Source: Marinovum algicola (GTDB lineage Bacteria; Pseudomonadota; Alphaproteobacteria; Rhodobacterales; Rhodobacteraceae). From it: a stretch of DNA of 64,000 nt. Of the stretch, positions 25,805 to 44,015 are shown piece by piece. The first letter of the stretch is position 1. Each line of letters starts with the position of its first letter. The position numbers and the translations under genes are program-made. The notes below the pieces were generated by a model. The model was not told the origin of the DNA and searched no databases. It saw only the letters and a list, made by a program, of their open reading frames with translations. The stretch lies in assembly GCF_900109145.1 (NCBI RefSeq), contig NZ_FNYY01000011.1, positions 82,097 through 146,096 on the forward strand, in the 5' to 3' direction.

Positions 25805-25835
25805 TATGTAGTTGCTACAGTCACTGTAGCTTCAA
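25805..25835 (-). promoter_or_regulatory. MerR-type promoter of the Cys-Cys CBS gene
   Basis: On the minus strand: -35 TTGAAG (25830-25835), a 19-base spacer containing the dyad CTACAGTGACTGTAG, and -10 TACATA (25805-25810). The over-long spacer with central dyad is the hallmark of promoters activated by MerR-family proteins. It predicts a leader of about 165 bases. Confidence 0.75.
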
Positions 25836-25844
25836 GCCCCGATT

Positions 25845-26465
25845 TCAGGCAATGTCCTCACTTGCCTGATTGTCATCGTGCACCGCCTTGTGGTGTTCAC
25901 CATGCGCGTCTTTCAGGATTCCGACGCCACCCCAGGCCGCGATGCCGGCGACAATCACGCCCACGACTAGGTCCGGCCAGTTCGTACCGAGCCAGGCCAC
26001 GAGCCCGCCTGCGACGACGATTCCGAGATTGGCCGCGAAGTCGTTCCAGCTGAAGGTATTCGCCGCTCGGATGTTCACGTCTGGATCGCGAAGCCTTGCC
26101 AGCAGCCAGACGCAAAGTGCGTTGATGGCCGCCGCTACCAGCGCCATGACAATCATGATGGTGCCAAGAGGATCCGATCCGCCGACGTAGCGGCGCCAGG
26201 CGTCATAAAGGATGCCAAGGGCGAAGAGGATCAGCAGGCCGCCCGAAACGTTTGCGGCTCCGCGCTTCCACTTGGCGGAGCGGGACAGTGCGAAGAGGCT
26301 GATCGCGTAGACGAAACTGTCCGACAGATTGTCGAGGCCATTGGCGATAAGCGCGCTTGAATCGCCGAATGCGCCCGAGGCGAAGAAAGCGATTGCCAGC
26401 CCGATGTTGAGACCCAGCACGATCCAGAGTGTGCGTCTTTCCGTTGCGTTTCTCTGCTCCGCCAT
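25845..26465 (-). CDS. Cation transporter (CDF transmembrane domain only)
   Basis: Inner-membrane CDF-superfamily protein of 206 residues with five to six membrane segments and no C-terminal dimerisation domain. Metal-site motifs are DNLSD in segment 2 and NDFAAN in segment 5, so the metal range may differ from the HxxxD-type exporter at 24095. The tail DAHGEHHKAVHDDN is His/Asp-rich. It lies 82 bases downstream of the MerR gene in the same direction and is probably co-transcribed with it. Confidence 0.8.
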   Translation of the reverse strand: MAEQRNATERRTLWIVLGLNIGLAIAFFASGAFGDSSALIANGLDNLSDSFVYAISLFALSRSAKWKRGAANVSGGLLILFALGILYDAWRRYVGGSDPLGTIMIVMALVAAAINALCVWLLARLRDPDVNIRAANTFSWNDFAANLGIVVAGGLVAWLGTNWPDLVVGVIVAGIAAWGGVGILKDAHGEHHKAVHDDNQASEDIA

Positions 26466-26547
26466 GCCGGGTATCCAAATTAGTGAATTGCCAATGAGTA
26501 ACTAACACCGGGCTTTTTGCGTTCCGATCAAAGGTCGTCGAAATTGC

Positions 26548-26976
26548 TCAGGCGCCGATCTCTTCATGGTCGGTCAGGCATTCGGAATGGTCGCGCAGTA
26601 CCTCGAGCACACGGCAATCAGAAGTCTGTCCGCCGCTGCACTCATGCACCATCCGCTTCAATTCCGTCCGCAGCGCCTCGAGCCGCGCCAATCGTCGCTC
26701 GACCTGTTTGAGTTGCCGACGGGCGATTGCATCCGCCTCTGCACAGGACTTTCCCGGATGATCGCTGAGATCGAGGAGCTCACGGATCGCGTCCAACGAG
26801 AAGCCCAGTTGCCGAGCGTGCCGGACGAATGACAAGCGGTCGAGTTCGGCGTCGCCATAGCGTCGTTGGCCCCCCTCGGTCCTGCCGGGCTCAGGCATAA
26901 GTCCGATCTGCTCGTAATACCGGATGGTCTGCACTTTTGTTCCGGTCTTCTTCGCCAGAGTCCCAATCGTCAGCAT
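26548..26976 (-). CDS. MerR-family Zn/Cd/Pb-type regulator (ZntR/CadR/PbrR-like)
   Basis: MerR protein of 142 residues. The N-terminal winged helix reads LTIGTLAKKTGTKVQTIRYY, then GGQRRY, a coupling helix and the dimer helix. Metal-sensing cysteines are in GKSCAEAD (the ZntR Cys79 position, Ser in copper sensors), HECSGG, SDCRVLE and HSECLT, which points to divalent ions (Zn, Cd, Pb). The start at 26976 is preferred to 26991 on spacing from GGGGAG. Related 19-base-spacer promoters occur at five places in the window, so it may govern a regulon. Confidence 0.85.
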   Translation of the reverse strand: MLTIGTLAKKTGTKVQTIRYYEQIGLMPEPGRTEGGQRRYGDAELDRLSFVRHARQLGFSLDAIRELLDLSDHPGKSCAEADAIARRQLKQVERRLARLEALRTELKRMVHECSGGQTSDCRVLEVLRDHSECLTDHEEIGA

Positions 26977-26994
26977 TTCCGCTCCCCACATTAC

Positions 26995-27009
26995 CTACAG
27001 TGGGTGTAG
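26995..27009 (-). promoter_or_regulatory. Operator-like dyad upstream of the MerR gene
   Basis: CTACAGTGGGTGTAG (CTACA-N5-TGTAG) has the same half-sites as the promoters at 25805, 27087 and 42716, and lies about 20 bases before the regulator's start codon. The flanking -35/-10 hexamers are poor, consistent with weak autoregulation. Confidence 0.55.
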
Positions 27010-27086
27010 CTTTATGCGGTGCGCATCACAAGCTTCACCTGAGTTTCACAGATAGGTGATTGTTGGCCGATCGGTGACAATCACGC

Positions 27087-27117
27087 TTGAACCTACAGTA
27101 GCTAGAGGATGTAGACG
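27087..27117 (+). promoter_or_regulatory. MerR-type promoter of the Sco-Dsb-LspA-Lnt operon
   Basis: -35 TTGAAC (27087-27092), a 19-base spacer with CTACAGTAGCTAGAG, and -10 TAGACG (27112-27117); the predicted start of transcription is about 30 bases before the first gene. It resembles the PbrR/CadR-type operators of other bacteria. It is divergent from the MerR gene 110 bases away. Confidence 0.75.
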
Positions 27118-27153
27118 CACACAAAATATAGAATCAGGTTCGGGCGGAGCGGC

Positions 27154-27756
27154 GTGAGGCTTTCAGGTCTTCAGAAGGTATTGTGGGTGTTGGCGGGCGC
27201 GGCGGCGTTCGTTTTCATCTGGCTGTTGCTATGGTCCGACTACCGTGCCGACCTTGCCCGAGCCGAGAATGAACCACCGTTTCTTGCTGATTTCGAACTG
27301 ACCGATCATCGGGGCATGATCCAAACGGACGAAGATTTCAAAGGTCGCTGGATGCTGGTCTTCTTCGGCTTCACCAATTGCCCTGACGTCTGTCCGACTA
27401 CGCTGTCCGAAGTCGCGGCCGTGATGGAGGGCTTGGGCGATGAGGCGGCAAAGGTCCAGCCGATTTTCATAACGATCGATCCGGAGCGGGATACGCCGAC
27501 TACACTTGCCGAGTATGTGCCCCTGTTCGACGCAGGGATCATCGGGCTGACCGGTACACCGGAGCAGATCGCCGCGACATCCGAAACCTTTCCGATATTC
27601 TTTGAGCGGATCGAGCAGGCGACTGCGCCGGGCGGATACACGATGGGTCACACGTCGCATCTTTTCCTTTTCGACACGCAAGCAGGCTTCGCGGACTCCT
27701 GGCCCTACGGCACGCCCGCCGAAGAGATCCTCGCCGATCTGAGACAGAGGATCTGA
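27154..27756 (+). CDS. Sco1/SenC-family copper/thiol protein
   Basis: Membrane-anchored periplasmic thioredoxin-fold protein of 200 residues: N-terminal anchor (VLWVLAGAAAFVFIWLLLW), the CxxxC copper/thiol motif NCPDVCPTTL, DPERDT and the distal His in YTMGHTSHLF. Sco proteins deliver Cu to cytochrome oxidase CuA or reduce its cysteines. It starts at GTG after GGAG and is the first gene of an eleven-gene operon. Two further Sco proteins and a Sco-like protein are in the window. Confidence 0.88.
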   Translation: MRLSGLQKVLWVLAGAAAFVFIWLLLWSDYRADLARAENEPPFLADFELTDHRGMIQTDEDFKGRWMLVFFGFTNCPDVCPTTLSEVAAVMEGLGDEAAKVQPIFITIDPERDTPTTLAEYVPLFDAGIIGLTGTPEQIAATSETFPIFFERIEQATAPGGYTMGHTSHLFLFDTQAGFADSWPYGTPAEEILADLRQRI

Positions 27757-27761
27757 TCGTC

Positions 27762-28184
27762 ATGACCCGACTTTCCGGAGAGACGGCCCTTGGCCTGGCC
27801 TGGATCATCGCGCTCACCGCGTCGCTTGCAGTGCTTTTCATCGGCGAGGTTCTGGGGCAGACACCTTGCGTGCTTTGCTGGTTTCAGCGTGCCTTCATGT
27901 TTCCCTTGGCCATCATCCTCGGGCTCGGGCTCTGGTGGCAGGACCGGCGTGTGGGTCGCTACGGGATCGCGCTGGCCTTGGGCGGTGCCGCCGTCGCGCT
28001 TTGGCATATGGGCCTCTATGTCGGGCTGATCCCCGAACGCATCCAGCCCTGCACGGCCACCGGCCCATCCTGTACCGACGACAATCAACTGGTCTTCGGC
28101 ATTCCGATTCCTTTGATGGCGCTCGTCGCCTTCGTGGTGATCGGGCTGCTGTCGGCCGTCTCACTGAAGGAAACACAAGAATGA
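27762..28184 (+). CDS. dsbB: Disulfide bond formation protein DsbB
   Basis: Four-segment inner-membrane quinone-dependent oxidase (140 residues) that re-oxidises DsbA. The first periplasmic pair is CVLC in TPCVLCWFQRAFMF; the second is in QPCTATGPSCTDD. Its stop overlaps the start of the DsbA-like gene, which is presumably its partner. Confidence 0.88.
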   Translation: MTRLSGETALGLAWIIALTASLAVLFIGEVLGQTPCVLCWFQRAFMFPLAIILGLGLWWQDRRVGRYGIALALGGAAVALWHMGLYVGLIPERIQPCTATGPSCTDDNQLVFGIPIPLMALVAFVVIGLLSAVSLKETQE

Positions 28185-28840
28185 AACGACGCGGCCTCAT
28201 CCTGTCCGTTCTCGCGCTCGGTGTCGCCGGTTTCGGCGGTGCCGCCTGGTATTCCAGCCGCCCCGACCCGATTGCCGCGGCCGATCCCATCGACCCTGAA
28301 TTGGCCGACGCGCTGATCCGACCCTATTCCCCGATCCTTGGACCTACGGATGCGCCCGTAACCATCGTTGAATTCTTCGACCCAGCCTGCGAGGCATGCC
28401 GCGCTTTCTATCCGGTCGTCGAGGATATCATGGCGGAGCACGGAGACGCGGTGCGCGTTGTAATTCGCTACACGTCTTTTCACGGCGAGGCGTCAGTAGA
28501 AGCGATCCGTGTGCTCGAGGCGGCGCGCATGCAGGACGTGTTTGAACCCGTGCTTGAGGCAGTCCTGCGCGAGCAGCCGAGGTGGGCCTCGCACGGGGCG
28601 CCGGAGCCGGGTTTGATTTTACAGATAGCTTCGACCGCAGGGCTCGATACGGATGCCGCCCGGACACAGATGCTGGCCCCCGGTGTTGTGGCGGTGCTCA
28701 ACCAGGACCGAGCTGATCTCGAAACCGTAGGCGTGCGACAAACGCCCACGTTCTTCGTGAACGGCAAGCCTCTCGATCCGTTCGGTGAGGCCGAATTGCG
28801 GAGGCTGGTGGCAGTGGAAGTTGCGGCAAGCCAAAGCTGA
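28181..28840 (+). CDS. DsbA-family thiol:disulfide oxidoreductase
   Basis: Periplasmic thioredoxin-fold protein (219 residues) with an N-terminal export signal/anchor, active site CEAC (EFFDPACEACRAFYP) and the cis-Pro loop QTPTFFVNG. The CEAC motif differs from the CPHC of E. coli DsbA and is of the DsbA/BdbD type paired with a DsbB/BdbC protein. ATGA overlap with dsbB supports pairing. Confidence 0.85.
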   Translation: MKRRGLILSVLALGVAGFGGAAWYSSRPDPIAAADPIDPELADALIRPYSPILGPTDAPVTIVEFFDPACEACRAFYPVVEDIMAEHGDAVRVVIRYTSFHGEASVEAIRVLEAARMQDVFEPVLEAVLREQPRWASHGAPEPGLILQIASTAGLDTDAARTQMLAPGVVAVLNQDRADLETVGVRQTPTFFVNGKPLDPFGEAELRRLVAVEVAASQS

Positions 28841-28862: not shown

Positions 28863-29333
28863 GTGGTGAAGAAGCTGAGATATACCAATGCATTGGCCGT
28901 GCTTCTGATGGTTGCAGGGCTGTCGGCCCCCGCACTGGCCGGTTCGGAGGATGTCGTGGTCGAGAACGCGTGGTCCCGCGCCTCGATCGGCGTCAACAGG
29001 CCGGGTGCCGCCTATATGACCGTGCGCAACACGGGTGAAGACGCCGTTACGCTGACCGGACTTGCGACACCGCTGGCCATGATGCCCGAGATCCATGAGT
29101 CGAAAACCAACTCCGATGGCGTCAGTTCCATGGTGCCTGCAGGCGAGATCACGATTGAGCCCGGCCAAAGCGTGGCATTGGAGCCGGGAGGGTTGCACGC
29201 CATGCTCATGAAGCTGCAAGAGCCGATGACCGAAGGCGAGACTTTCCCGCTGACACTGACCTTTTCGAATGGCGGCGAGGTAACGGTCGAGGTCCCAATC
29301 CTCGGAATCGCCGCGCGTGGACCGGAGGGCTGA
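28863..29333 (+). CDS. PCuAC copper chaperone
   Basis: Periplasmic Cu(I) chaperone of 156 residues with a signal peptide (ALAVLLMVAGLSAPALAGS) and the His/Met ligand pattern: IHESKTNSDGVSSM, then GGLHAMLM. PCuAC proteins work with Sco proteins in loading CuA of cytochrome oxidase; Sco genes flank it on both sides. It starts at GTG 28863, seven bases after AGGAG. A paralogue is at 52541-52984. Confidence 0.85.
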   Translation: MVKKLRYTNALAVLLMVAGLSAPALAGSEDVVVENAWSRASIGVNRPGAAYMTVRNTGEDAVTLTGLATPLAMMPEIHESKTNSDGVSSMVPAGEITIEPGQSVALEPGGLHAMLMKLQEPMTEGETFPLTLTFSNGGEVTVEVPILGIAARGPEG

Positions 29334-29959
29334 TGCAACGTCGGCAGCTCGTTCTATACGGCGCAGCCGGTGCCGGCTTTCTTGGCCTGACGCTCTTCGT
29401 GGGCTGGTGGCGGGTGGACGGGCCCGGTGCGCCTGAACCAAAAGGACAGCGGCCCCTGCCCCTGTCGGCGATGGAGTTCCGGCTGACCGACCACGAGGAA
29501 AATGAGGTAGGGCCTGGCAACCTGATCGGTCGTCCGACAATGGTGTTTTTCGGGTTCACCTACTGCCCGGACGTCTGCCCGACGACCCTATCGGATATTT
29601 CCGGCTGGCTTGAGGAACTGGGCGACGAAGCATCAGAGATGAACGTGGTCTTCATCACGGTCGACCCGGAGCGGGACACGGTCGAGGCCATGGCCGAATA
29701 TGTCGGCTATTTTCATCCGGTCATTCGTGGCTGGACGGGGCCGGAAGACCAGATTGCCCGCGCTGCAGAAGGGTTTCGTGCCTCATTTGAGCGCGTCCCG
29801 ACCGAGGGCGGCGGCTATACGATGAACCATACGGCAAGCGTATTCCTGTTCGATGCCGAGGGTGAGCTCGTCACCATGATCGACTATCACGAGCCAAGAG
29901 AATTCGCGGTGCCGAAGATCCGGCGCGCACTGACAGAAGACGTAGAGGGGGCAACATGA
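29333..29959 (+). CDS. Sco1/SenC-family protein (second copy in the operon)
   Basis: Sco protein of 208 residues with an N-terminal anchor (LVLYGAAGAGFLGLTLFVGW), CxxxC in YCPDVCPTTLS, DPERDT and the distal His in YTMNHTAS. Start and stop both overlap neighbouring genes, so it is tightly coupled to PCuAC. It differs enough from the copy at 27154 to suggest separate clients. Confidence 0.88.
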   Translation: MQRRQLVLYGAAGAGFLGLTLFVGWWRVDGPGAPEPKGQRPLPLSAMEFRLTDHEENEVGPGNLIGRPTMVFFGFTYCPDVCPTTLSDISGWLEELGDEASEMNVVFITVDPERDTVEAMAEYVGYFHPVIRGWTGPEDQIARAAEGFRASFERVPTEGGGYTMNHTASVFLFDAEGELVTMIDYHEPREFAVPKIRRALTEDVEGAT

Positions 29960-31329
29960 AGATAAGAACTGTCTTGGCGGTCGTTGCGGTCGCAGGCGCG
30001 TTTTCGGTGACCGCCATCGCCATCTCTGGCGTTCTGTCCAAAGAACCGGTGCCCCCTGCGATTGCTGAAGCGACCCTCTGGACTCCCGATCCGCTTGCGC
30101 CGCCTCGGATTACCGAAACCAATTCGGTCCGCCCTACACTCGCCCAGGCAGATATCGCATTCGAGTTCAGACCCCGGCCCCTCCTGACCGTTTCCCCCGC
30201 TGATACCTCCTTGCCATCTATCGAGCCCCCGCTGGTCACCTGGTCGCGCGAGATTGCGTCGGGCGAGACGCTTGATGCGGTCCTTTCCGATGCGGGGCTG
30301 GATGCTTCGGATCGCGCCGAAATCGCCTTGGCGATTGGCACGGAATACGATCTGCGCCGTCTGCGTCCGGGTCACGTCATTACCGTGGTTTCCACGATGG
30401 ATGGCAATCCGCGTCGTTTAGAACTCGCCGTCGAAGACGGTGTCCGGATAGAGGCGGTCTTCGGCGAACAGCTTGCCGCTCGCGTGTTGGAGCCGGACCC
30501 GGAATTGGTGACTTTCGCCGGCGAGGCGGTGATCGAGAGCTCGATTTTCGCTGCCCTGGACACGGCAGACATCCCCGCCCGTTTTGCGGTGGACCTGGCG
30601 CAGATGCTGGGCGGCACCGTGGATTTCCGTCGTGATCTTGCGGGTGGCGAGACGATGCGCCTCCTTTGGCGCGAGGCCCGAGACGGGAACAAGAGGATTG
30701 GTCAGCCCGTGCTTGCCTTTGCCGCACTGGATATCGATGGCTCGGTCTATGAAATCGTCTGGCCGAACGACGGCAGCGGCCAAGCGACGATCTATGTCGA
30801 CGGAGAAGTCCTGCGCGTGTTCGCGCAACCGGTCGAAGGTGCACGGCTGAGTTCAGTCTTCGGCCGTCGCACCCATCCGGTCTACGGCAACGTACGGATG
30901 CACACAGGGGTCGACTTCGCGGCGGCGCGCGGCACGCCGGTACAGGCGACGGCACCTGGCCGCGTTAGCTTCATCGGCCGCCGCGGTGGGTATGGCCGGG
31001 TGGTTGAAATCGCGCATGGCTCCGACACCCTGACGCGCTACGCCCATCTCAGCGCCGTACCGGACGGGCTCACACAAGGGCAACGCGTGATCGCCGGAGA
31101 TTTGATTGGCCGCGTCGGTGCGACGGGTACCGCGACAGGCCCCAACCTACATTACGAAGTGCTGGTGGACGGTCGCCCAACCGACCCTCTCTCTGACGAC
31201 CGATTGGCAGGGGCGGCCGAGCGTGAAGCGGACGACACGGCCGCGCTTGAGCGACTGCGTGAGGCGCGTTCACTTCTTGCTGAGAGGCTCGCCAGCGAAT
31301 TTGCACAGACGACAACCGAAAGGCTTTGA
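29956..31329 (+). CDS. M23 peptidoglycan endopeptidase (MepM-like), H-x-H changed to N-x-H
   Basis: Periplasmic protein of 457 residues with a signal anchor, a LysM/OapA-like region (SGETLDAVLSDAGLDASD), a middle domain and a LytM/M23 domain from about residue 300. Zn ligands are in MHTGVDFA and LHYEV; YAHLS is present. The catalytic H-x-H stretch reads GPNLHYEV, so the upstream His, thought to be the base, is Asn. It may be a weak or inactive enzyme acting as an adaptor. Finding it inside a copper/thiol operon is unusual. Confidence 0.82.
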   Translation: MKIRTVLAVVAVAGAFSVTAIAISGVLSKEPVPPAIAEATLWTPDPLAPPRITETNSVRPTLAQADIAFEFRPRPLLTVSPADTSLPSIEPPLVTWSREIASGETLDAVLSDAGLDASDRAEIALAIGTEYDLRRLRPGHVITVVSTMDGNPRRLELAVEDGVRIEAVFGEQLAARVLEPDPELVTFAGEAVIESSIFAALDTADIPARFAVDLAQMLGGTVDFRRDLAGGETMRLLWREARDGNKRIGQPVLAFAALDIDGSVYEIVWPNDGSGQATIYVDGEVLRVFAQPVEGARLSSVFGRRTHPVYGNVRMHTGVDFAAARGTPVQATAPGRVSFIGRRGGYGRVVEIAHGSDTLTRYAHLSAVPDGLTQGQRVIAGDLIGRVGATGTATGPNLHYEVLVDGRPTDPLSDDRLAGAAEREADDTAALERLREARSLLAERLASEFAQTTTERL

Positions 31330-31332: not shown

Positions 31333-31791
31333 ATGAAACGATTTACTCCCGCCCTTGCCATCGCATTTGCCTTGCTTCCCGCGGCGCAGGCCGTCGCAGA
31401 GGCGATTCAGATCGACGTCCGGAAGACAAACGGCTGCGGCTGTTGCCTGTCCTGGATGAAGCACCTCGAGGAGAATGGCTTCGCGCCGATGGGCGAGGAC
31501 ATGTTCGGAGGATCTCTTGTGCGCTTCAAACTCGACAATGGCGTGCCGCAGCGCATGGTGTCCTGCCATACTGCTCTGGTCGACGGCTATGTGATCGAGG
31601 GCCACGTGCCGGCGGCTGACATCCAACGCCTGCTGGAGGACCGGCCAGACGCGGTAGGCCTGGCGGTGCCGGGAATGCCCTACGGGTCGCCCGGCATGGG
31701 ACCGGAGGACGACCGGGAGGCTTACGATGTCTTCCTGATCCACGAAGACGGATCGACCGAGGTCTACACCAGCTACTCGGCTCCTGACTGA
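31333..31791 (+). CDS. DUF411 periplasmic metal-binding protein
   Basis: Exported protein of 152 residues: signal peptide (LAIAFALLPAAQAVAEA), then the DUF411 signature TNGCGCCLSWMKHLEENGF and SCHTALVDGYVIEGHVP. DUF411 proteins occur with copper-resistance genes and probably bind copper through the CGCC cysteines. A paralogue is in the CueR-side operon (56730-57227). Confidence 0.82.
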   Translation: MKRFTPALAIAFALLPAAQAVAEAIQIDVRKTNGCGCCLSWMKHLEENGFAPMGEDMFGGSLVRFKLDNGVPQRMVSCHTALVDGYVIEGHVPAADIQRLLEDRPDAVGLAVPGMPYGSPGMGPEDDREAYDVFLIHEDGSTEVYTSYSAPD

Positions 31792-31813: not shown

Positions 31814-32596
31814 TTGGAACCCCTCTCCCCCATAGCGCTTGGCTTTCTTGGAAGCCTGGCCGCCGGATCGCTGACCGCGGTCGGGGCGGTCCCCGTTCTT
31901 TTTGGGCGCATCCCGTCCCGGGCCACGCGCGATCTGCTGCTTGGCTTCGCGGCGGGTGTCATGCTCGCGGCTTCGTTCTTCTCGCTGATTATCCCGGCTC
32001 TCGACGCTGCTGAAGGACAGTTCGACAACGGTGCTCTCCCGGCGGCCATCGTATGTGTTGCGATCCTGCTTGGCATGGGCGCGGTCGCTCTGATGAACGA
32101 ACGGCTGCCGCATGAACATTTCAAGACGGGGCGGGAAGGTCCCGACGCCGCATCGCTGCGGCGCGTCTGGCTTTTCATCATCGCGATCACGATCCACAAT
32201 TTTCCCGAAGGGCTTGCCGTCGGCGTCGGGTTCGGGGCTGACGGTTTGTCGGGCGGGTTGCCACTTGCGATCGGTATTGGATTACAGAATGCCCCCGAAG
32301 GTCTGGCGGTGGCGGTTTCGTTGCTCGGCGAGGGCTATTCCAGGTTTCGCGCCTGGAGCATCGCCGCCCTGACCGGTCTGGTGGAGCCCGTCGGCGGGCT
32401 CATCGGCGCGGGTATCATCGGCATCTCGCAACCGCTGCTGCCTTGGGGTCTCGCCTTCGCAGCAGGTGCGATGCTCTATGTCATCAGCCACGAGATCATT
32501 CCGGAAACCCACCGATCCGGCCATCAGAACAGGGCGACGCTCGGCCTCGCCGTTGGTCTTGTGATCATGTTGTTCCTCGACGTCTGGCTGGGATAA
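31814..32596 (+). CDS. ZIP-family metal transporter
   Basis: Eight-segment ZIP transporter of 260 residues. The binuclear metal site is recognisable in HNFPEGLAVGVG (segment 4) and QNAPEGLAV (segment 5, where the usual first His is Gln). The cytoplasmic loop is short (PHEHFKTGREG). It would import Zn, Mn or Fe into the cytoplasm. The start appears to be TTG at 31814 with no clear ribosome-binding site; translational coupling to the DUF411 gene is possible. Confidence 0.8.
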   Translation: MEPLSPIALGFLGSLAAGSLTAVGAVPVLFGRIPSRATRDLLLGFAAGVMLAASFFSLIIPALDAAEGQFDNGALPAAIVCVAILLGMGAVALMNERLPHEHFKTGREGPDAASLRRVWLFIIAITIHNFPEGLAVGVGFGADGLSGGLPLAIGIGLQNAPEGLAVAVSLLGEGYSRFRAWSIAALTGLVEPVGGLIGAGIIGISQPLLPWGLAFAAGAMLYVISHEIIPETHRSGHQNRATLGLAVGLVIMLFLDVWLG

Positions 32597-32600: not shown

Positions 32601-33074
32601 ATGAGAACTTGCCTCTTCGTCGGTCTGCTTGCTGCGCTGATCGCCTTTCTTGTCGATCAGGCAACGAAGGCAATCGTTGTGTCCAATGCGACTGTTCTTA
32701 GTTCCGGCGTATCGGTCTTTCCCGGCTTCAATCTCATCTACCTGCGCAATGACGGAGTGACCTTCGGGCTTCTCGGCGGCGCGCCGTGGTGGAGCCTTGT
32801 CTTACTGGCGCTTGGCATCTGCGTCTGGCTGGCGTTCATGCTGGTCCGTACCAGCAGCCGGGTCGAGGCCATTGCCTATGGTGCGATCATCGGCGGTGCA
32901 CTCGGCAATATTCTGGACCGCCTGCGCTATCGTGCGGTGACGGATTTCCTCGATTTCTACATCGGGACGGCGCACTGGCCTGCCTTCAACATGGCCGATG
33001 TTTTTGTGGTTGGCGGCGTGATGCTGCTGCTCATTGCGCCGTGGGTTGGCGCTCGACTTCAGACCGATTCATGA
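32601..33074 (+). CDS. lspA: Lipoprotein signal peptidase (LspA)
   Basis: Aspartyl signal peptidase II of 157 residues with four membrane segments. Conserved blocks are LVDQATKAIV, NILDRLRYRAVTDFLDFY and FNMADVFV, which hold the two catalytic Asp residues. It removes signal peptides from prolipoproteins. Its stop overlaps the start of lnt. LspA homologues accompany lead and cadmium resistance genes elsewhere (PbrC); a second LspA is at 45556-46065. Confidence 0.9.
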   Translation: MRTCLFVGLLAALIAFLVDQATKAIVVSNATVLSSGVSVFPGFNLIYLRNDGVTFGLLGGAPWWSLVLLALGICVWLAFMLVRTSSRVEAIAYGAIIGGALGNILDRLRYRAVTDFLDFYIGTAHWPAFNMADVFVVGGVMLLLIAPWVGARLQTDS

Positions 33075-34642
33075 AGCCGGGATTGCCGCAGTTCGTTAGT
33101 GAGGACCTGAACCTGTTCCAGCGCATGGGTCTTGCCCTTGCTGCCGGCGGATTGACGGTTTTGACTCTTCCGCCGTTTTCTTGGCTCATCGCGGTCCCTG
33201 TCGCCTTCTCCGTGCTCTTTATCGTTCTCCGGAACATCTCAACCTCGCGCGCTTTCCTTGTCGGTTGGGCTTTCGGACTGGGCCAATTCGGGATTGGAAT
33301 TTCCTGGATCGCCGAGAGCTTTTACGTCGATGCCGAACGTTTCGGCGCACTGGCGATTCCGGCGGTCGCGGGTCTGTCCGCCGGACTTGCCATCTTCCCG
33401 GGCATGGCGGCGATGCTTTTTGCCGCCATCATGCAGCGCCGAGCTGTCGGCGGCATTGCGGCGGGCCTGCTGTTTGCAACCTGCTGGGTGGCCACGGAAT
33501 GGCTGCGGGGTCATGTCCTGACAGGGTTTCCCTGGAACCTTGCCGCTTATGCCCTTGTCGACTATGCCGCCCTGCGCCAACCCGCCGCCTGGGTCGGAAG
33601 CTACGGTTTGGGCTTTCTCACGGTCTTCATCGGCATATTGCCAGGTGTGTTGACTGTGGCGGCGCCAAAGAGACGCGCGCCTGTTCTCGTGCTCTTCGCC
33701 GTTGCTGTGGCGGGTTTCTGGGTTGGCGGTGCGCTTCGGTCAGGGCAGGACGTGCCGCCGACAGACGTTGCTTTGCGCATCGTCCAAGGCAATGTGCCAC
33801 AAGTCGAGAAGTGGGTACCGGGCAGCCGCCAGCGAACCTTGGAAAAATACCTGGGCTTGTCCGCGCAACCCGGACGTTTCGATTTGCTGCTTTGGCCGGA
33901 AACGGCCTTCCCCGGCTTTCTGGACGAAGATGCTGCGGCACGCGCGCGGATATCTGCAGCTTTGCCAGACGGCAGGATCCTACTGACAGGTGCGCCTGAC
34001 CGAGTGGAGGGCGATGGGGGAACCAGATATTTCAACACGGTTCAGGCATACGATGGCACCAGTGAGATTCTGACGGGATATGCAAAACATCATCTTGTTC
34101 CGTTTGGCGAATATGTGCCGCTGAGAGGCTGGCTACCCATCGAACGACTGACGGAAGGGTTGGGCGATTTCACGCCGGGACCAGGGCCGCGCACGCTGGC
34201 GATCCCTGGCGCGCCTCTGGTCGCGGTGGCGATCTGTTACGAGATCATCTTTCCGGGCCACGTGGTCGATGACCTTTTCCGCCCCGACTGGATATTCAAC
34301 GCCACAAATGATGCCTGGTTCGGAACCAGCATCGGACCCGAGCAGCACCTCGCCTCCGCGCGGATGCGCGCGGTCGAGGAGGGGCTTCCCGTGGTCCGGG
34401 CGGCCAACACTGGGATATCCGCGATCATCGACGCCAATGGAAATGTCGTCGCGCGTCTTGATACCGGGGAAACAGGCACCATTGATGCCGGCCTGCCGGG
34501 CGCGCGTACTCCAACGCCCTATGCGCGGTTCGGCGACTGGACCTTGTTGGTTCTTGTTTTTGGGTGCTGGGTCTTCGGCTGGCTGGCCAGTTTGCTCGGA
34601 CGAGATCCCGATGCGCGGCATTTTGGAACGGAGGTATCCTGA
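33071..34642 (+). CDS. lnt: Apolipoprotein N-acyltransferase (Lnt)
   Basis: Inner-membrane enzyme of 523 residues that adds the third acyl chain to lipoproteins. After about six N-terminal membrane segments comes the nitrilase-fold domain with the Glu-Lys-Cys triad: WPETAFPGFL, YAKHHLVPFGEYVPL and VAICYEIIFP. The start at 33071 (ATGA overlap with lspA) is clear. With lspA it gives the last two steps of lipoprotein maturation, but no lgt gene is present. It is probably a second copy, since lnt is normally a housekeeping gene. Confidence 0.92.
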   Translation: MKPGLPQFVSEDLNLFQRMGLALAAGGLTVLTLPPFSWLIAVPVAFSVLFIVLRNISTSRAFLVGWAFGLGQFGIGISWIAESFYVDAERFGALAIPAVAGLSAGLAIFPGMAAMLFAAIMQRRAVGGIAAGLLFATCWVATEWLRGHVLTGFPWNLAAYALVDYAALRQPAAWVGSYGLGFLTVFIGILPGVLTVAAPKRRAPVLVLFAVAVAGFWVGGALRSGQDVPPTDVALRIVQGNVPQVEKWVPGSRQRTLEKYLGLSAQPGRFDLLLWPETAFPGFLDEDAAARARISAALPDGRILLTGAPDRVEGDGGTRYFNTVQAYDGTSEILTGYAKHHLVPFGEYVPLRGWLPIERLTEGLGDFTPGPGPRTLAIPGAPLVAVAICYEIIFPGHVVDDLFRPDWIFNATNDAWFGTSIGPEQHLASARMRAVEEGLPVVRAANTGISAIIDANGNVVARLDTGETGTIDAGLPGARTPTPYARFGDWTLLVLVFGCWVFGWLASLLGRDPDARHFGTEVS

Positions 34643-35362: not shown

Positions 35363-35391
35363 ACTCGGGACTTTGCAGCGAAACAGCGGGA

Positions 35392-35438: not shown

Positions 35439-35459
35439 TGTACTTTGGAGGCCGTGGTG

Positions 35460-38212: not shown

Positions 38213-38991
38213 GCACAGCTATCGAAATAGACGACCTGAGTTTTGCCCATACGGGCGCGGACCTTCCGGCGCTGGAGCGGGTCTCGTTTCGGATTTCGGC
38301 GGGCGAGAGCGTCGCTTTGCTCGGCCCGTCCGGGGCGGGCAAGACGACCCTGCTGGCACTGCTCGACGGCAGGCTCCAAGGCTGGAGCGGGCGGGTATCC
38401 GTTCTGGGTGCGCCGCTCGATCCCGACCGCCCGCCGCCGAGCGCGCGCCGTCCGGATACCGGTTTCGTGTTTCAGGAGTTTGCATTGGTCGAACGCTCCA
38501 CGGTTCTGCGTAACGTCCTGAATGGCCGCCTGGGGCGCATGTCGCCGCTGCGGGCCCTGATGGGATCGCCGACCAAGCATGATCTGGAGATTGCGCGCAC
38601 GGCACTTGCCGATTGCGGCATTTCCGATCTTGCCGAACGCAGGGTCGACAGCCTCAGCGGCGGGCAGCGGCAGCGTGTGGCCATCGCGCGGTGTCTGGCG
38701 CAGGAACCGCGCCTAATCCTCGCCGACGAACCGGTGAGCAACCTCGACCCCGCGCGTGCATGTGAGATCCTGGCGCTGCTGACCGGGGCGGCGCGAGCGC
38801 GCGGCGCGACGGCGCTGTTTTCGTCGCACCAGCCCGACCTGGCGCGGCGTTTCGCGCAGCGCATCATCGGCATGCGGGATGGGCGGATCGTGTTCGATGT
38901 ACCGACCTCCGAGTTGAACGATAATGCGACGGCGGAGCTCTATCGGGAGGTAGAGCCAAGCCCCGGTATCGGCCTCAGGGCGGTGTCCTGA
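38209..38991 (+). CDS. ABC transporter ATP-binding protein (PhnC-type)
   Basis: ATPase of 260 residues with Walker A GPSGAGKTT, signature LSGGQRQRVAIAR, Walker B LILADEPVSNLDP and the switch His in SSHQPDLA. It is most like the PhnC/phosphonate-importer ATPases. ATGA overlaps with both neighbours show that it belongs to the importer operon. Confidence 0.88.
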   Translation: MSTAIEIDDLSFAHTGADLPALERVSFRISAGESVALLGPSGAGKTTLLALLDGRLQGWSGRVSVLGAPLDPDRPPPSARRPDTGFVFQEFALVERSTVLRNVLNGRLGRMSPLRALMGSPTKHDLEIARTALADCGISDLAERRVDSLSGGQRQRVAIARCLAQEPRLILADEPVSNLDPARACEILALLTGAARARGATALFSSHQPDLARRFAQRIIGMRDGRIVFDVPTSELNDNATAELYREVEPSPGIGLRAVS

Positions 38992-39749
38992 TGGCGTTCC
39001 GCGGGTTTGGCGGCTTTGCGACGAGCGGTCTGATCGCAACCGCGATCCTGTGGTCCTTCGCCACGACCGATGTCGAGTTCTCGCGACTTCTGTCGGCCGG
39101 CCCGCGGATCGCCGATTTCCTCGGCCGGATGTTTCCGCCTGACCCGACGGTGATGGCCGAGATCAAGAAGGGCAGCGCGGAAACGCTGAGGATCGCGATC
39201 CTCGGCACCCTCGGTGCTGTGATCCTGTCCGTTCCCCTCGGCATTCTCGCGTCTGAGACGATGGTATCGCCTGCGGTGTTCCGGCCGATCCGAACGCTGC
39301 TTGCTTTCATCCGGGCGATTCCGCTGATCCTCGTGGCCATGCTCATGGTGGGCGCTGTCGGGCTCGGGCCGCTGCCCGGCATCATCGCGGTCGCCTTTCA
39401 TGCAACGGGGATGCTCGCCAAGTTCTATGCCGAGGCGATCGACGGCGTGTCCCGCGCGCCGATCGCAGCACTTGAAAGCGCGGGCGCCGGGCCGCTCGTG
39501 CGGCTCAGATACGCGATCTGGCCGCAGATGGCGCCGGTCGTCGCCCGCGACACGATTTTCCGGTTCGAGTTGAACCTGCGCGAGTCGCTGATCCTCGGCA
39601 TTGTCGGCGCGGGCGGGATCGGCTTTTACATCCAGACCTACGTGCGCTCTTTCCAGTATGACAAGGCGGCCAGCGTCACGATTGCCGTCGTCGTCATGGT
39701 CATCGCCATCGAAGCCATCAACGTTGCGCTGCGCCGTCGTTTTGCCTGA
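38991..39749 (+). CDS. ABC transporter permease (PhnE-type)
   Basis: Inner-membrane permease of 252 residues with about six membrane segments. The cytoplasmic EAA-like loop reads ALESAGAGPLVRLRYAIWPQ, and the C-terminal LRESLILGIVGAGGIGFY is typical of PhnE. It completes the importer with the binding protein and ATPase. Its 3' end is four bases from the convergent L,D-transpeptidase gene. Confidence 0.88.
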   Translation: MAFRGFGGFATSGLIATAILWSFATTDVEFSRLLSAGPRIADFLGRMFPPDPTVMAEIKKGSAETLRIAILGTLGAVILSVPLGILASETMVSPAVFRPIRTLLAFIRAIPLILVAMLMVGAVGLGPLPGIIAVAFHATGMLAKFYAEAIDGVSRAPIAALESAGAGPLVRLRYAIWPQMAPVVARDTIFRFELNLRESLILGIVGAGGIGFYIQTYVRSFQYDKAASVTIAVVVMVIAIEAINVALRRRFA

Positions 39750-39752: not shown

Positions 39753-40262
39753 TCAGGCATAGATGTCGATGGGGGTTCCGTCCCTGACCATGGCGTAGAT
39801 ATCCTCGATTTGCCGGTCCGTGACGGAGATGCAGCCCGCGGTCCAGTCGCGTTTGTTCATCGGGTCGATCCCCTTGCGCGGCCCCCCGTGGATGAAGATG
39901 TCGCCGCCCGGCGATTTTCCTTGCGCCTCCGCATACGCGATGTCGGCCTCATTGGGATATGAAATGCCGATGGAGAGGTGGAAGAGGCTGTCCGGGTTGC
40001 GCCGGTCAATCAGATAGGAGCCCTCCGGCGTGCGGCCGTCTCCTTCGAACTGCTTGTGGCCTTCGGGCGCGAAGCCCAATCCGATGGGATAGGTCCGCAA
40101 GACATCATCCGTTCCGTCAAGAACCAGCAGCCGCTGCGCCTTGTACATACGCAGCCGGGTCACTTCGGGTCCGTTGTAGGACCGGAACTTGCTGGCACAG
40201 CCAGACAGGAAGGTGGCCAATCCGCCCAACAGCAAGACCCGCCGTGGAATTCTGGTATTCAT
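39753..40262 (-). CDS. L,D-transpeptidase lipoprotein (YkuD domain)
   Basis: Lipoprotein of 169 residues: a signal ending in the lipobox LSGC (Cys about residue 22), then a YkuD domain with catalytic HGGPR...DWTAGCIS (His, Ser/Thr-x-Gly-Cys). Such enzymes make 3-3 cross-links in peptidoglycan or anchor proteins to it. The ATG at 40262 is preferred over a GTG one codon earlier. It is a likely client of the LspA/Lnt pair in this window. Another L,D-transpeptidase is at 43197-43862. Confidence 0.85.
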   Translation of the reverse strand: MNTRIPRRVLLLGGLATFLSGCASKFRSYNGPEVTRLRMYKAQRLLVLDGTDDVLRTYPIGLGFAPEGHKQFEGDGRTPEGSYLIDRRNPDSLFHLSIGISYPNEADIAYAEAQGKSPGGDIFIHGGPRKGIDPMNKRDWTAGCISVTDRQIEDIYAMVRDGTPIDIYA

Positions 40263-40328: not shown

Positions 40329-42683
40329 TCAATGACCGTGCGCCAGTGCTCCCTTCGCCATCTGCTCGCCCACCGGTTCTCCGCCTGAAGGCCCGGCCTC
40401 AACCTGATGGCCGTTCAGGAGCCGAAGTGCGTTGGCGACCACCAGCAGAGACACGCCTACATCCGCAGCAATGGCGCCCCACATTGAGGCCATACCGAAC
40501 GCGGTCAGCCCGACGAACAGCGCCTTGGTCGCCAGCGATATGCCGATATTCTGGTGGATGATCGTCATGGCACGGCGCGAATGGCCGATAAGCCAGGGTA
40601 CCTTGCCGATGTCGTCGGTCATCAGCGCGATGTCGGCCGTCTCGATCGCGGCATCCGATCCGACAGCGCCCATGGCGATGGCATAATGCGCCCGCGCCAT
40701 GGCCGGTGCGTCATTCACACCGTCGCCGATCATCGCCACCATGTCGTGGCTTTCGACGAGTTCCTCAATGGCCGTCACCTTGTCTTCTGGCAAAAGTTCG
40801 GCGCGCACCTCGTCGATGCCGACTTCGGCTGCCACCGCGCGCGCGGTGCGTTCGTTGTCGCCCGTCAACATCACGATGGTCTTCACTCCCTGCGTGTGCA
40901 GCCGCGCAACGATCCCTTTGGCATCGGGGCGGATGCGGTCGCGAAGCTCCAGAACGCCGGTCACGCCGGTCTCGTCACCCACGGCAACAAGGGTGCTCCC
41001 TGCCCCTTCGATCCGGTCCCGCAGATCCGACGGAATGGCATTGCCGAAACCTTTCTCCTCGGCGAACCGATCCGAACCGAGCCAGATCGCGCGCCCGTCG
41101 GCGCGTCCTTCCAGCCCGCGCCCGGGCACGGTGCGGGTGTCCTCTGCGGCAGACACCGAAACACCATCGGTTTCGGCACGCGCTAGGATGGCACGTGCCA
41201 GCGGGTGCGAGGATCGCGCCTCCAGACTTGCCGCCAGCGTCATGAGATCGCGCGCGGAGGCTTCGCCCAGCGGATGGACTGCCGCCAACTCGGGCTCGCC
41301 CATGGTGATCGTCCCGGTCTTGTCCATCGCCAGTGCCGTGGTCCGCCCCGGTGCTTCGACATAGGCGCCGCCCTTTATGAGCACCCCAGCCCGTGCCGAC
41401 GCGGTCAGCGCTGCGACAATGGAAACTGGCGTAGAAATGACAAGGGCACAGGGGCAGGCGATGACCAGCAGAACCAGCGCATTGTAGAACCAGTAATCCC
41501 AGGCACCGCCCGTCACCAGTGGCGGCACCAGCGCGATGGCGATCGCCAGAGCCATCACGATGGGTGTGTAGATGCGCGCGAACTTGGCCACCCACTGTTC
41601 GACCGGCGCGCGGCGGGCATGGGCATCGCCCACCATGCGAATGATTTTCGCGAGCACCGTGTCCGAGGCGGCCTTCGTCGCCCGCACCGTCAGTGTGCCC
41701 TCGCCGTTGATCGTGCCGGCATAGACCTCGTCGCCGGGTTCCTTGGGCACTAGCGCGCTTTCCCCAGTAATTGGGGCCTGATCGACGGCCCCTGCCCCGT
41801 CCACGACCTCACCGTCGAGGGGGATCCGGTCGCCGCCGCGCACGATAAACCTTGCATTGACTGCCACGGCCGCGGCCGGAACGTCGGATTCAGATCCGTC
41901 GTCGTAAAGAACCCGCGCCGTTGGCGGCGCCAGATCGAGGAGCGCGGAAACCGCATTACGCGCCCGCCCCACGCTCCAGCTCTCAAGATAGAGAGAGAGC
42001 GAGAAGAAGAAGGCGACCGTCGCAGCCTCAAAAAACTCGCCGAGGCCGATGGCGCCCGCGACGGCCACCACCATGAGCAGGTTCATGTCGGGGCTAAGCC
42101 TCCGCGCCGAAGACCAGGCCTTGGGCGCGACAAGCCAGACGCCAAAAAGAATCGCGACGGCGAAGATCCCTGCTTCCGCCATAGGCATAGGCACCTCGCC
42201 ATGGCCGGCAAAGAGCCCGAGCGCGCCGCCCAAGTTGGTCTCGACAATGTGAAAAAGGAATCCCGCCGCCCAGAAGCCGCCGCTCAACGAGGTAAAGCGC
42301 TTCTGACGTGCCAGATGCGCCGCCTGGTCCTCTGCTGCGTTGTCGGCATCCCACGGTTTCGCACTCATGCCCGTGCTCGCGACCACCTGAGTGACTTCGT
42401 TGTCCGAGATCTTCTCGGCGCTATCGAGGATGGTCATTCGCCCGTTGATCACGTCGAATGCCAGGTGTTCGGTTCCGCCCACTTTCGGCCCGACAACCCG
42501 GTTCAGGATCGCCACCTCTTCGGCGCAATCCAGGCCGGAGACCTGAAAGCTCCTTCCGCCGGACGGCGCTGGCGCCGTGGACGCGACGTCCTTGCTGGCG
42601 TCGCAACAGGATTTGCCTCTTGGGTCAGAATGCTCTTGATCACCCGGATGGCCGTGATCGTTGCGGTTGCCGTCGGAAGACAT
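40329..42683 (-). CDS. P1B-2-type Zn/Cd/Pb-exporting ATPase (ZntA/CadA/PbrA-like)
   Basis: Heavy-metal P-type ATPase of 784 residues. Order: a His/Asp-rich N-terminus with CC (HGHPGDQEHSDPRGKSCCD), a degenerate HMA domain whose metal loop is GLDCAEEV rather than GMxCxxC, membrane segments with CPC (VIACPCALVIS), DKTGTIT, SSHPLA, TGDNERTA and GDGVNDAP. A Lys and DVG in the last segments indicate the divalent P1B-2 class. TGAGG precedes the ATG. A MerR-type promoter with a 19-base spacer starts 33 bases upstream, predicting induction by Zn, Cd or Pb. Confidence 0.92.
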   Translation of the reverse strand: MSSDGNRNDHGHPGDQEHSDPRGKSCCDASKDVASTAPAPSGGRSFQVSGLDCAEEVAILNRVVGPKVGGTEHLAFDVINGRMTILDSAEKISDNEVTQVVASTGMSAKPWDADNAAEDQAAHLARQKRFTSLSGGFWAAGFLFHIVETNLGGALGLFAGHGEVPMPMAEAGIFAVAILFGVWLVAPKAWSSARRLSPDMNLLMVVAVAGAIGLGEFFEAATVAFFFSLSLYLESWSVGRARNAVSALLDLAPPTARVLYDDGSESDVPAAAVAVNARFIVRGGDRIPLDGEVVDGAGAVDQAPITGESALVPKEPGDEVYAGTINGEGTLTVRATKAASDTVLAKIIRMVGDAHARRAPVEQWVAKFARIYTPIVMALAIAIALVPPLVTGGAWDYWFYNALVLLVIACPCALVISTPVSIVAALTASARAGVLIKGGAYVEAPGRTTALAMDKTGTITMGEPELAAVHPLGEASARDLMTLAASLEARSSHPLARAILARAETDGVSVSAAEDTRTVPGRGLEGRADGRAIWLGSDRFAEEKGFGNAIPSDLRDRIEGAGSTLVAVGDETGVTGVLELRDRIRPDAKGIVARLHTQGVKTIVMLTGDNERTARAVAAEVGIDEVRAELLPEDKVTAIEELVESHDMVAMIGDGVNDAPAMARAHYAIAMGAVGSDAAIETADIALMTDDIGKVPWLIGHSRRAMTIIHQNIGISLATKALFVGLTAFGMASMWGAIAADVGVSLLVVANALRLLNGHQVEAGPSGGEPVGEQMAKGALAHGH

Positions 42684-42715
42684 GGATTGACCTCAGGATT
42701 CATTGATTCCACATT

Positions 42716-42746
42716 GACATAGCCCCTACAGTAACTAGAGCTTCAA
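42716..42746 (-). promoter_or_regulatory. MerR-type promoter of the P-type ATPase
   Basis: On the minus strand: -35 TTGAAG (42741-42746), a 19-base spacer CTCTAGTTACTGTAGGGGC, and -10 TATGTC (42716-42721). It is close to PbrR/ZntR-type operators. The transcript would start about 25 bases before the ATPase ATG. Confidence 0.85.
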
Positions 42747-42876
42747 GGGCAAAAAAGTGGATATTCGTCCAGCAAGAAAGGCGCCCTGCGGAGGCTTGAA
42801 GCTAGCCGCCCCCTTGAAACGACGCGGTTGGAGCAACGCTTGCCGGTACGAAGCGATCAGAATGAGTGAGGTAGAC

Positions 42877-43149
42877 ATGCAGAAACGAAACGCGCCGATT
42901 ATCGCAGCGACATTGGTGCTTGCTGGCTGCGCGGTGCCAACGCTGGACGACGGCGGCGCTCGCAACGAAGTGGGAAGTGTTCCCGAGGCCGTCATTGCCC
43001 TTGCTGCGCCTGGTCAGGATCTCACCACGGCGCGGCTTCGTCCCGAGGATGGCTGTTATTGGTATGAACACAGCGGTCCGGTGGAAAACACCTTGGTTCC
43101 GCTACGCTCGGCAGGTGGCAACCCCATCTGCACTTCGCGCCAGTCCTGA
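42877..43149 (+). CDS. Small lipoprotein
   Basis: A 90-residue lipoprotein with a signal ending in the lipobox LAGC (residue about 18). The rest is short and contains EDGCYWYEHSGPVE and a C-terminal ICTSRQS, so two further Cys may form a disulfide. It is divergent from the P-type ATPase. Start at 42877 after GTGAGG; an ATG at 42862 is possible. Function unknown. Confidence 0.65.
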   Translation: MQKRNAPIIAATLVLAGCAVPTLDDGGARNEVGSVPEAVIALAAPGQDLTTARLRPEDGCYWYEHSGPVENTLVPLRSAGGNPICTSRQS

Positions 43150-43196
43150 TCAGCCCATAGATGCGTCAAGCCCACACGTAACACATGATGCGCCAG

Positions 43197-43862
43197 TCAA
43201 CTTCTCGGGGTGACGCTGTCTTCCGCCGAGTACAGGAATGCCGTCGAGCCAATCTCGACGTTGGGATAGAGATCATTGATGTGTGCCATGACCATTCGGA
43301 CGCAGCCGGAACTCGCACGGCCGCCAATGCTTCTTGGATACGGTGTCCCGTGAATCCTTAGATAGGTGTCTCGGTCGCCGACGAAGAGATAGAGGGCTCG
43401 CGATCCGAGCGCGTTTTCAGGTCCGGGTTCCATACCGTCAGCGATATCGGCGTAGAGCTCTGGGTCGCGGTCGATCATGTTTTGTGTCGGCTGCCAATGC
43501 GGCCACCTGACCTTGCGCTTGATCGTATAGGTGCCCGGTTCGTAAAGTCTGCCGCGCGCGATCGCCACGCCATAGCGCATCGCCGTGCCGCCTTCTTCGA
43601 TGTGGTAGAGATAGCGCGCAACAGCATCGACATGGATATCACCGGGTACAAGTCCGTCCTTCGCGAGGACCCGCTGTGGCAGGAAGCGAGGGTGAAGGCC
43701 CCAAGGGTTGGACGTGGCCGGGTCGTAGCCGGGAGGTGTAACCTGTGCGTCCCAAGCTGCCTTCTGCGCATCGGTAGGCCACGTGTCTGCAAGGAGCGGG
43801 CTGGATATCGATGCCGAAAACAGCGCGGTGGTCGTCTGGATGAAATGTCGTCTTGTCAGCAT
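43197..43862 (-). CDS. Tat-exported L,D-transpeptidase (YkuD)
   Basis: A 221-residue YkuD-domain enzyme with a twin-arginine-like signal (LTRRHFIQTTTALFSASISS) and catalytic segment HGTPYPRSIGGRASSGCVRM (His and Cys present). GGAG eight bases before ATG 43862 decides the start. A promoter with a 19-base spacer of the same type as the P-type ATPase promoter lies about 120 bases upstream, which suggests metal-induced synthesis. It forms or exchanges 3-3 peptidoglycan cross-links. Confidence 0.85.
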   Translation of the reverse strand: MLTRRHFIQTTTALFSASISSPLLADTWPTDAQKAAWDAQVTPPGYDPATSNPWGLHPRFLPQRVLAKDGLVPGDIHVDAVARYLYHIEEGGTAMRYGVAIARGRLYEPGTYTIKRKVRWPHWQPTQNMIDRDPELYADIADGMEPGPENALGSRALYLFVGDRDTYLRIHGTPYPRSIGGRASSGCVRMVMAHINDLYPNVEIGSTAFLYSAEDSVTPRS

Positions 43863-43984
43863 ATAGATTGCTCCGTTCACGCATTGGACGGCAAACCGAA
43901 CCTTACCCCGAACGCAGTGTTGTTCGCCCGGGAAAGAGTGAGGCGTTATTGGCAACTTGCTCCATGGTGCCGTTCTATGTCGGT

Positions 43985-44015
43985 GGCTTAACTCCTAAAG
44001 CTACTAGAGGTTCAA
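43985..44015 (-). promoter_or_regulatory. MerR-type promoter of the L,D-transpeptidase
   Basis: On the minus strand: -35 TTGAAC (44010-44015), a 19-base spacer CTCTAGTAGCTTTAGGAGT, and -10 TAAGCC (43985-43990). The spacer begins with CTCTAGT as in the ATPase promoter. The leader would be about 115 bases. Confidence 0.65.

Follow-up and report, generated by a model that had tools for sequence, protein, structure and literature searches.

The closest described relative of the system reported here is the pbr operon of Cupriavidus metallidurans plasmid pMOL30 (PMC3431237), in which a MerR regulator with metal-coordinating cysteines is accompanied by a P-type ATPase and a predicted signal peptidase (PbrC), and the promoter carries a dyad in a 19-base spacer behind a -35 of TTGACT. 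For MerR and PbrR, the metal-free regulator is described as holding such a promoter shut and the metal-bound form as untwisting the DNA (PMC3431237). In the heavy-metal regulons of CadR and other MerR regulators (Permina et al. 2006, PMC1526738), a strong palindrome lies in a 19- or 20-base spacer, the transporter promoter is regular while the regulator gene is unregulated or only repressed, CDF targets occur on plasmids, and dispersed members were predicted for the CueR regulon. Zinc induces a PbrC-like signal peptidase II in Mesorhizobium, where zinc and cadmium also induce a CcdA/DsbD-like gene beside cadA (PMC3668242), and a cadmium-type MerR acts on copper-defence genes in the CadR-CopR cross-talk of Rubrivivax gelatinosus (PMC11591864). 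All published work is characterised here from parts of the cited texts. The present analysis concerns a metal island in Marinovum algicola, lying in a 64,000-nucleotide stretch (contig NZ_FNYY01000011.1, positions 82,097 to 146,096; hereafter the window) that holds four predicted MerR-type promoters and a MerR gene. The four sites have one conserved layout and are probably a single regulon of the island MerR, in which metal would open all four promoters and so induce, besides the pumps, spare copies of envelope enzymes that it would otherwise poison.

The island resembles pbr in its MerR with metal-coordinating cysteines, its P-type ATPase, its dyad-bearing 19-base spacers (behind TTGAAS) and its signal peptidase, LspA. 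It differs in that the ATPase and the signal peptidase stand behind separate promoters, several promoters being present in all, and in adding L,D-transpeptidases, DsbA/B, two SCO1 proteins, PCuAC, M23, DUF411, Lnt and CDFs; no PbrT or PbrD was noticed in it, and no search aimed at either was made. L,D-transpeptidase, Dsb, SCO1 and Lnt are not among the regulon targets in the sections of PMC1526738 drawn on here. The Mesorhizobium passages drawn on contain no MerR site analysis of the induced genes, and the word 'transpeptidase' is absent from that text; in the R. gelatinosus abstract the named targets belong to copper detoxification and efflux rather than to the envelope. Already known are MerR regulons that include a signal peptidase, as in pbr, or have dispersed targets, and a zinc-induced PbrC-like peptidase. 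Since pbr has a signal peptidase, the claim in the preliminary description of this locus that its envelope targets fall outside the classic regulon had to be narrowed; as far as searched, what is new is the repeated L,D-transpeptidases and the Dsb/SCO/PCuAC/M23/Lnt set. Among the open-access titles and abstract starts listed in literature searches, a weak basis, none described L,D-transpeptidase, Dsb, SCO1/PCuAC, M23 and Lnt genes as members of a MerR regulon.

The four window sites share a TTGAA[G/C] -35, a CTnnAGTnnCTnnAG dyad and a -10 that begins exactly 19 bases on (Table 1). The pattern TTGAASCTMYAGTNRCTDKAGNNNNTA, which includes the 'TA' of the -10, matched exactly four times in the window and not once in 100 dinucleotide shuffles, and all four promoters described earlier were confirmed at their positions. 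The layout of MerR-activated promoters (a 19-20-base spacer with an operator dyad), also predicted for them, was borne out at 4/4 window sites, and 76 of 83 related sites had a spacer of exactly 19. The fifth dyad said to precede the MerR gene is real, but it is weaker and degenerate and has no matching -35; it is possibly an autoregulatory, repressing site. Degenerate dyads also precede most of the closest MerR genes (judged by eye).

The whole genome was scanned with the 21-base pattern (5,396,756 bases in 62 contigs, the window being the end of contig C34). The scan returned five exact matches, namely the four window sites and C33:3163-3143, and one further site with a single mismatch (C33:3784), which makes six sites on two contigs at no more than one mismatch; on both contigs they adjoin metal-transport genes. 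The other six matches listed have three mismatches, and two of these are the far strand of window sites. A reversed control pattern gave no match at ≤1 mismatch in the same genome, but at ≤3 mismatches it exceeded the true pattern (26 + 30, that is 56, against 12), so only low-mismatch matches are meaningful. Across 394 genomes of the same family, scanned at ≤1 mismatch, the true pattern was found in 163 genomes and the reversed control gave 34 matches in 32 genomes (hand count). Such control matches are what a chance resemblance of ordinary promoters would draw on. This explanation is barely conceivable, given the empty shuffles, the spread of the true pattern over 163 genomes and the setting of the fetched sites, nearly all of which adjoin metal genes.

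Spacing was examined in 62 stretches, comprising 20 around L,D-transpeptidase matches and 40 at or beside sites (chosen from about 150 places listed), together with the window and contig C33. They contain 83 distinct sites at ≤2 mismatches, selected with the -10 left out of account. The -10 TA followed after exactly 19 bases in 76 of them and after 17, 18 or 20 bases in none; once similar flanks were removed, 57 of 63 sites had TA at 19. The flanks vary far more than the dyad, the -35 and the spacing, and the information content of the dyad is inflated because the sites were picked by pattern. The first gene behind the 76 sites was an L,D-transpeptidase in 16 (12 of them from stretches fetched for a site, the rest from stretches fetched for an L,D-transpeptidase or from the window; two of the 16 being 34-36% relatives), SCO1 in 13, a P1B ATPase in 12 + 6 (two of the 12 matching over 60 residues only), a transglutaminase-like gene in 11, a CDF gene in 7, ZIP in 1, CBS in 1 and an unmatched gene in 9, one of which is an LdtD-type L,D-transpeptidase. 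Site-headed runs are found again in islands whose gene order differs, for the most part at 50-90% protein identity, and the position of promoter 1 heads transglutaminase-like and CDF genes in related islands. In many islands the transglutaminase-like protein replaces the CBS gene behind that promoter (e.g. L013:2308-3102), and its gene also follows a site beside a MerR of about 50% identity (L068, L076, L078, L090). In the diverged island L116:12390-18740 (genome G163), the LdtD-type L,D-transpeptidase and a CAP-domain protein are also behind a site.

Parts of the island match 159 plasmid records, of which 107 are predicted conjugative; they are mostly roseobacters by name, from many genera, and 8 records cover at least 80% of the island in one place. 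The conservation of the sites therefore partly reflects common descent. Dinoroseobacter shibae DFL 12 carries the island twice in a form that has all four sites, on the 190.5-kb record NC_009955 and on pDSHI03 (NC_009957), and mutants of this model strain cured of the 191-kb plasmid exist (PMC9426580). Plasmid pRLO149_83 of Roseobacter litoralis, a species reported to be more zinc-tolerant than R. denitrificans, carries a reported zinc ATPase, ZIP and CDF (PMC3141670); it may hold a related island and is given as a lead only. With parts of the island on many plasmids, mostly predicted conjugative, and with several L,D-transpeptidase copies lacking a site, the dyads before the envelope genes could be relics carried along after regulation was lost. 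We regard this as very improbable, as the flanks are far more variable than dyad, -35 and spacing (in sites picked by pattern), the sites are retained in islands whose proteins share about 50% identity and whose genes are ordered differently, and the spacing holds among sites with dissimilar flanks. The chance and relic readings were both set aside on the shuffles, the 19-base spacing, the flank variation and the dissimilar-flank subset.

Loci were also chosen by protein, without the site. In a SCO1 search of 101 genomes, 30 loci were scored, at most one per genome and with the window's further SCO copies left out; a site was accepted at ≤3 mismatches with TA at 19. All 9 loci at or above 47% identity, which include those of the window and D. 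shibae, had it, while none of the 21 more distant loci did. In the named genomes, 79 of 80 loci chosen by protein were scored, L229 being left out (it covers only residues 121-200 of the query). The site was found at 25 of 28 loci with M23 or DUF411 downstream, compared with 3 of 51 where neither was found; when split by identity instead, the counts were 23/26 (at least 50%) and 5/53. The three site-bearing loci without M23 or DUF411 are L201, L224 and L226; L224 and L226 retain other operon genes, and none of the operon genes was found in the 7 kb examined downstream of L201.

Among L,D-transpeptidases of at least 62% identity, the site preceded 5 of the 11 that form the closer group and none of the 14 in the core group (p = 0.009), or 4 of 10 in the closer group without the near-identical D. 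shibae copy (p = 0.02), the 76% cut between the groups having been chosen after the list was seen. In a tree of 39 L,D-transpeptidases, which includes stretches fetched for a site, all 15 site-bearing proteins fell into one clade of 23 (97/89), where the other 8 have no site, and none was among the 16 outside. Regulator and site also occurred together. Among 59 same-family genomes (G001 and G003 left out; several low bit scores being rough conversions of E-values, and three matchless genomes set to 0), the site was present in 26 of 30 with a MerR match of at least 100 bits and in 1 of 29 without.

As a prediction, one MerR regulon that reaches the P1B-2-type ATPase, the CDF pumps, the SCO/Dsb/LspA/Lnt operon and the L,D-transpeptidase is well supported by these data. 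Sequence comparison shows where the sites lie, that the spacer is exactly 19 bases, that diverged islands retain the sites upstream of the same operons, and that sites and the MerR clade occur together. The proposal that a single regulon extends to the envelope operon and the L,D-transpeptidase has gained support from many genomes, among them the named loci with M23 or DUF411 and the genomes with the MerR.

Several observations weigh against so simple a picture. The signal is incomplete at three operon loci: at L209 the dyad is exact but the -10 reads CA, L227 has 4 mismatches and L222 has no site. Six of the 11 close L,D-transpeptidases have no site at ≤3 mismatches, including the second D. 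shibae plasmid copy, so the link to the L,D-transpeptidase is looser than that to the SCO1 operon; the L053 locus holds a 5-mismatch remnant. Four genomes with the clade MerR have no site, one genome has a site without it, and the shared descent of a mobile island inflates all counts. Lastly, two MerR paralogues make the acting regulator uncertain. Contig C33 (12 kb) is a sister island in which two sites of the same type, one before a transglutaminase-like - ZIP - CDF run and the other before an ATPase - DUF411 run, lie beside a MerR 79% identical to that of the window, the next MerR in the genome being 45% identical. The DNA-recognition stretch is identical in both. With sites of this kind next to it, the C33 MerR is a second candidate regulator besides the MerR at 26548, and it probably acts on the same sites. 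The stronger claim, that the C33 protein or both proteins activate the six sites, leaving the window MerR as neither their only nor their chief regulator, draws on this pairing of two close MerR genes with adjoining sites. It appears rather unlikely, as genome G053, with one close MerR (85%; next listed 35%), nevertheless carries sites upstream of SCO1, the ATPase and the L,D-transpeptidase, so that in G053 an island MerR suffices. Of the earlier statement that the MerR at 26548 controls four operons, the conserved predicted regulon stands, while the role of sole regulator does not, the C33 paralogue being a candidate as well.

The window MerR scored above the cut-offs of PF13411, PF09278 and PF00376 (MerR helix-turn-helix and DNA-binding domains). 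Its Cys78, Cys113 and Cys121 align with cysteines of CadR (6jgv), occupy the divalent-metal-sensor position and two loop positions, and are shared by all 12 aligned rows with 70% identity or more; a fourth cysteine, Cys133, is conserved in the clade. In the alignments, the metal loop is C-x7-C, compared with C-x6-C in CadR and C-x8-C in PbrR691. The protein stayed below every named NCBIfam equivalog cut-off (score/cut-off: CadR-PbrR 107.4/151.45, ZntR 108.5/167.95, PRK09514 (ZntR) 120.5/143, CueR 123.1/147.4, MerR 111.1/150.85). From the cysteine positions and the types of pump, sensing of Zn, Cd or Pb is likely, and the earlier assignment to the divalent-metal type is supported by the three cysteines at CadR positions. 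A cross-response to Cu is possible.

The genes behind the promoters are listed in Table 1, and the spacing within each run suggests a single transcript.

Table 1. Predicted promoters, dyads and genes of the island, with positions in the window.
Feature	Position	Strand	Remarks
Predicted MerR-type promoter 1	25805..25835	-	TTGAAG, 19-base spacer, dyad CTACAGTGACTGTAG, -10 TACATA; heads CBS - CDF - SpoIIAA/STAS
Predicted MerR-type promoter 2	27087..27117	+	TTGAAC, 19-base spacer, dyad CTACAGTAGCTAGAG, -10 TAGACG; heads SCO1...Lnt operon
Predicted MerR-type promoter 3	42716..42746	-	TTGAAG, 19-base spacer, dyad CTCTAGTTACTGTAG, -10 TATGTC; heads P1B ATPase - YkuD
Predicted MerR-type promoter 4	43985..44015	-	TTGAAC, 19-base spacer, dyad CTCTAGTAGCTTTAG, -10 TAAGCC; heads L,D-transpeptidase
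Weaker dyad CTACAGTGGGTGTAG	26995..27009	not assigned	Just upstream of MerR start (26976), without TTGAA -35
SpoIIAA-like/STAS protein	23761..24198	-	Last in promoter-1 run
CDF-family efflux transporter (ZitB-like)	24095..25063	-	Promoter-1 run
CBS-pair protein	25198..25632	-	Five vicinal CC pairs; first gene after promoter 1
Short CDF-family cation transporter	25845..26465	-	Downstream of merR; TIGR01297 75.2 bits, below cut-off 82.35
MerR-family regulator	26548..26976	-	142 amino acids; between sites 1 and 2, then short CDF
SCO1/SenC-type protein	27154..27756	+	First in envelope operon; D. shibae orthologue annotated SCO family
DsbB	27762..28184	+	Annotation of D. shibae orthologue
DsbA-like thioredoxin-fold protein	28181..28840	+	Envelope operon
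PCu(A)C copper chaperone	28866..29333	+	Start set by D. shibae comparison
Second SCO1/SenC protein	29333..29959	+	Envelope operon
M23 family peptidase	29956..31329	+	Envelope operon
DUF411 protein	31333..31791	+	Envelope operon
ZIP family metal transporter	31814..32596	+	Envelope operon
LspA, signal peptidase II	32601..33074	+	Envelope operon
Lnt, apolipoprotein N-acyltransferase	33071..34642	+	Last in envelope operon; start set by D. shibae comparison
YkuD-domain (L,D-transpeptidase-fold) protein	39753..40262	-	Second gene after promoter 3
P1B-type heavy-metal ATPase, Zn/Cd/Pb type	40329..42683	-	Behind promoter 3
L,D-transpeptidase (YkuD/ErfK type)	43197..43862	-	SGCVR motif; behind promoter 4

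The targets named in the preliminary description were incomplete in two details, as the CBS gene starts a run of three and a YkuD gene follows the ATPase. Promoter 1 also heads a CDF metal-efflux gene, so the CBS promoter is no outlier. The first SCO1/SenC-type protein had no NCBIfam match, and its C-x3-C was invariant in 8 aligned relatives. A CPC in a membrane helix and a D-x-G in the last helix form the signature of P1B-2 (Zn/Cd/Pb) ATPases. The island ATPase has CPC at 410 and ADVG near the C terminus and the last membrane helix, and scored above the TIGR01512 cut-off. The product of promoter 4 is a predicted L,D-transpeptidase by its domain (PF03734, 82.6 bits) and motif (ASSGCVR). The YkuD protein behind the ATPase was considered as LdtF/DpaA and rejected, the match being far below cut-off. 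PDB searches with the two YkuD proteins gave three matches each; for the L,D-transpeptidase the top one was 6v45, a structure with the label of a carnitine-operon protein. In the CBS protein family, which extends to other phyla, five vicinal CC pairs were found in 52 of the 60 closest listed homologues and four in 44 of the next 60; the family is likely metal- or redox-sensing.

The working model follows the MerR family. Apo-MerR would hold the over-long 19-base-spacer promoters shut, and the metal-bound form would untwist the DNA and open them. A thiophilic metal would then induce the efflux pumps together with extra copies of cysteine-dependent envelope enzymes, and these copies would keep thiol-dependent envelope processes running while the pumps clear the cell, the regulon's envelope genes replacing enzymes that the metal has poisoned. 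Proteins of the regulon that depend on thiols or handle thiol-binding metals are the L,D-transpeptidase, DsbA/DsbB, SCO1, Lnt and the transglutaminase-like protein of the sister islands. Relatives of several occur elsewhere in the genome (Lnt 42%, LspA 41%, DsbA-like 35%; ten further matches for the L,D-transpeptidase). In other bacteria, copper has been reported to inhibit L,D-transpeptidases and DpaA (PMC8263019), lipoprotein acylation (PMC6538781) and, among other cysteine-dependent processes, disulphide formation (PMC8630537), and the regulon has extra genes for L,D-transpeptidation, lipoprotein acylation and disulphide formation. At least three kinds of L,D-transpeptidase lie behind this promoter type, namely the window type, a 34-36% relative (L099, L114) and an LdtD type with scaffold and peptidoglycan-binding domains (L116); this repeated recruitment suggests that the activity matters under metal.

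On these grounds we tentatively suggest that a plasmid-borne metal sensor may run an envelope 'spare-parts' programme, in which cysteine-dependent enzymes for cross-linking, lipoprotein maturation, disulphides and oxidase copper loading would be supplied and L,D-transpeptidases of at least three kinds drafted. The thiol idea leaves part of the operon uncovered, since LspA belongs to the aspartyl proteases and nothing obvious marks ZIP, M23 or DUF411 as thiol enzymes; the poisoning data cited concern copper, whereas the pumps and the MerR look Zn/Cd/Pb-type. The envelope genes might instead serve copper supply and lipoprotein handling, with SCO1, PCuAC and Dsb metallating cytochrome oxidase and LspA and Lnt maturing metal-binding lipoproteins of the island. 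SCO1 and PCuAC are indeed copper chaperones of cytochrome oxidase (PMC7558416), a small lipoprotein-like gene (judged by eye) lies at 42878-43149, and PbrC is a predicted signal peptidase within pbr. As a full account this is plausible yet on the doubtful side, because it leaves unexplained the several kinds of L,D-transpeptidase under one promoter type and the full-length spare Lnt; either role, copper supply to oxidases or lipoprotein handling, is a serious candidate for parts of the operon. If the spare-parts programme is true, resistance to divalent metals would regularly include, as a selectable component, the protection of envelope thiol enzymes. Accounts of metal resistance usually centre on pumping and sequestration. 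One metal regulon in which cell-wall, lipoprotein and disulphide enzymes appear repeatedly would make the upkeep of thiol enzymes in the envelope a part of resistance, and the question of the envelope targets of divalent metals in living cells becomes directly testable.

Other features of the islands were also recorded. A module of MntR/DtxR, a 630-amino-acid cytochrome peroxidase (MauG type) and a phosphonate-type, PhnD/PhnC/PhnE-like ABC transporter is common to both islands (34904-39749 and L013:6682-11538); the own-genome scan found no site in it at ≤3 mismatches, and it probably belongs to another regulon. At 44298-46065, a separate metal unit without the dyad consists of an ArsR-family regulator, a CDF transporter read in the divergent direction and, after the transporter, a second LspA; the N terminus of this CDF transporter weakly matches P1B ATPase models. 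In genome G300, a copy of the ATPase-type promoter precedes a transposase-like reading frame (judged from sequence) and not an ATPase (L105:8050-8866). At the left edge of the window island, 22416-23444 holds a transposase gene whose type, IS30, was judged from its sequence, in line with mobility.

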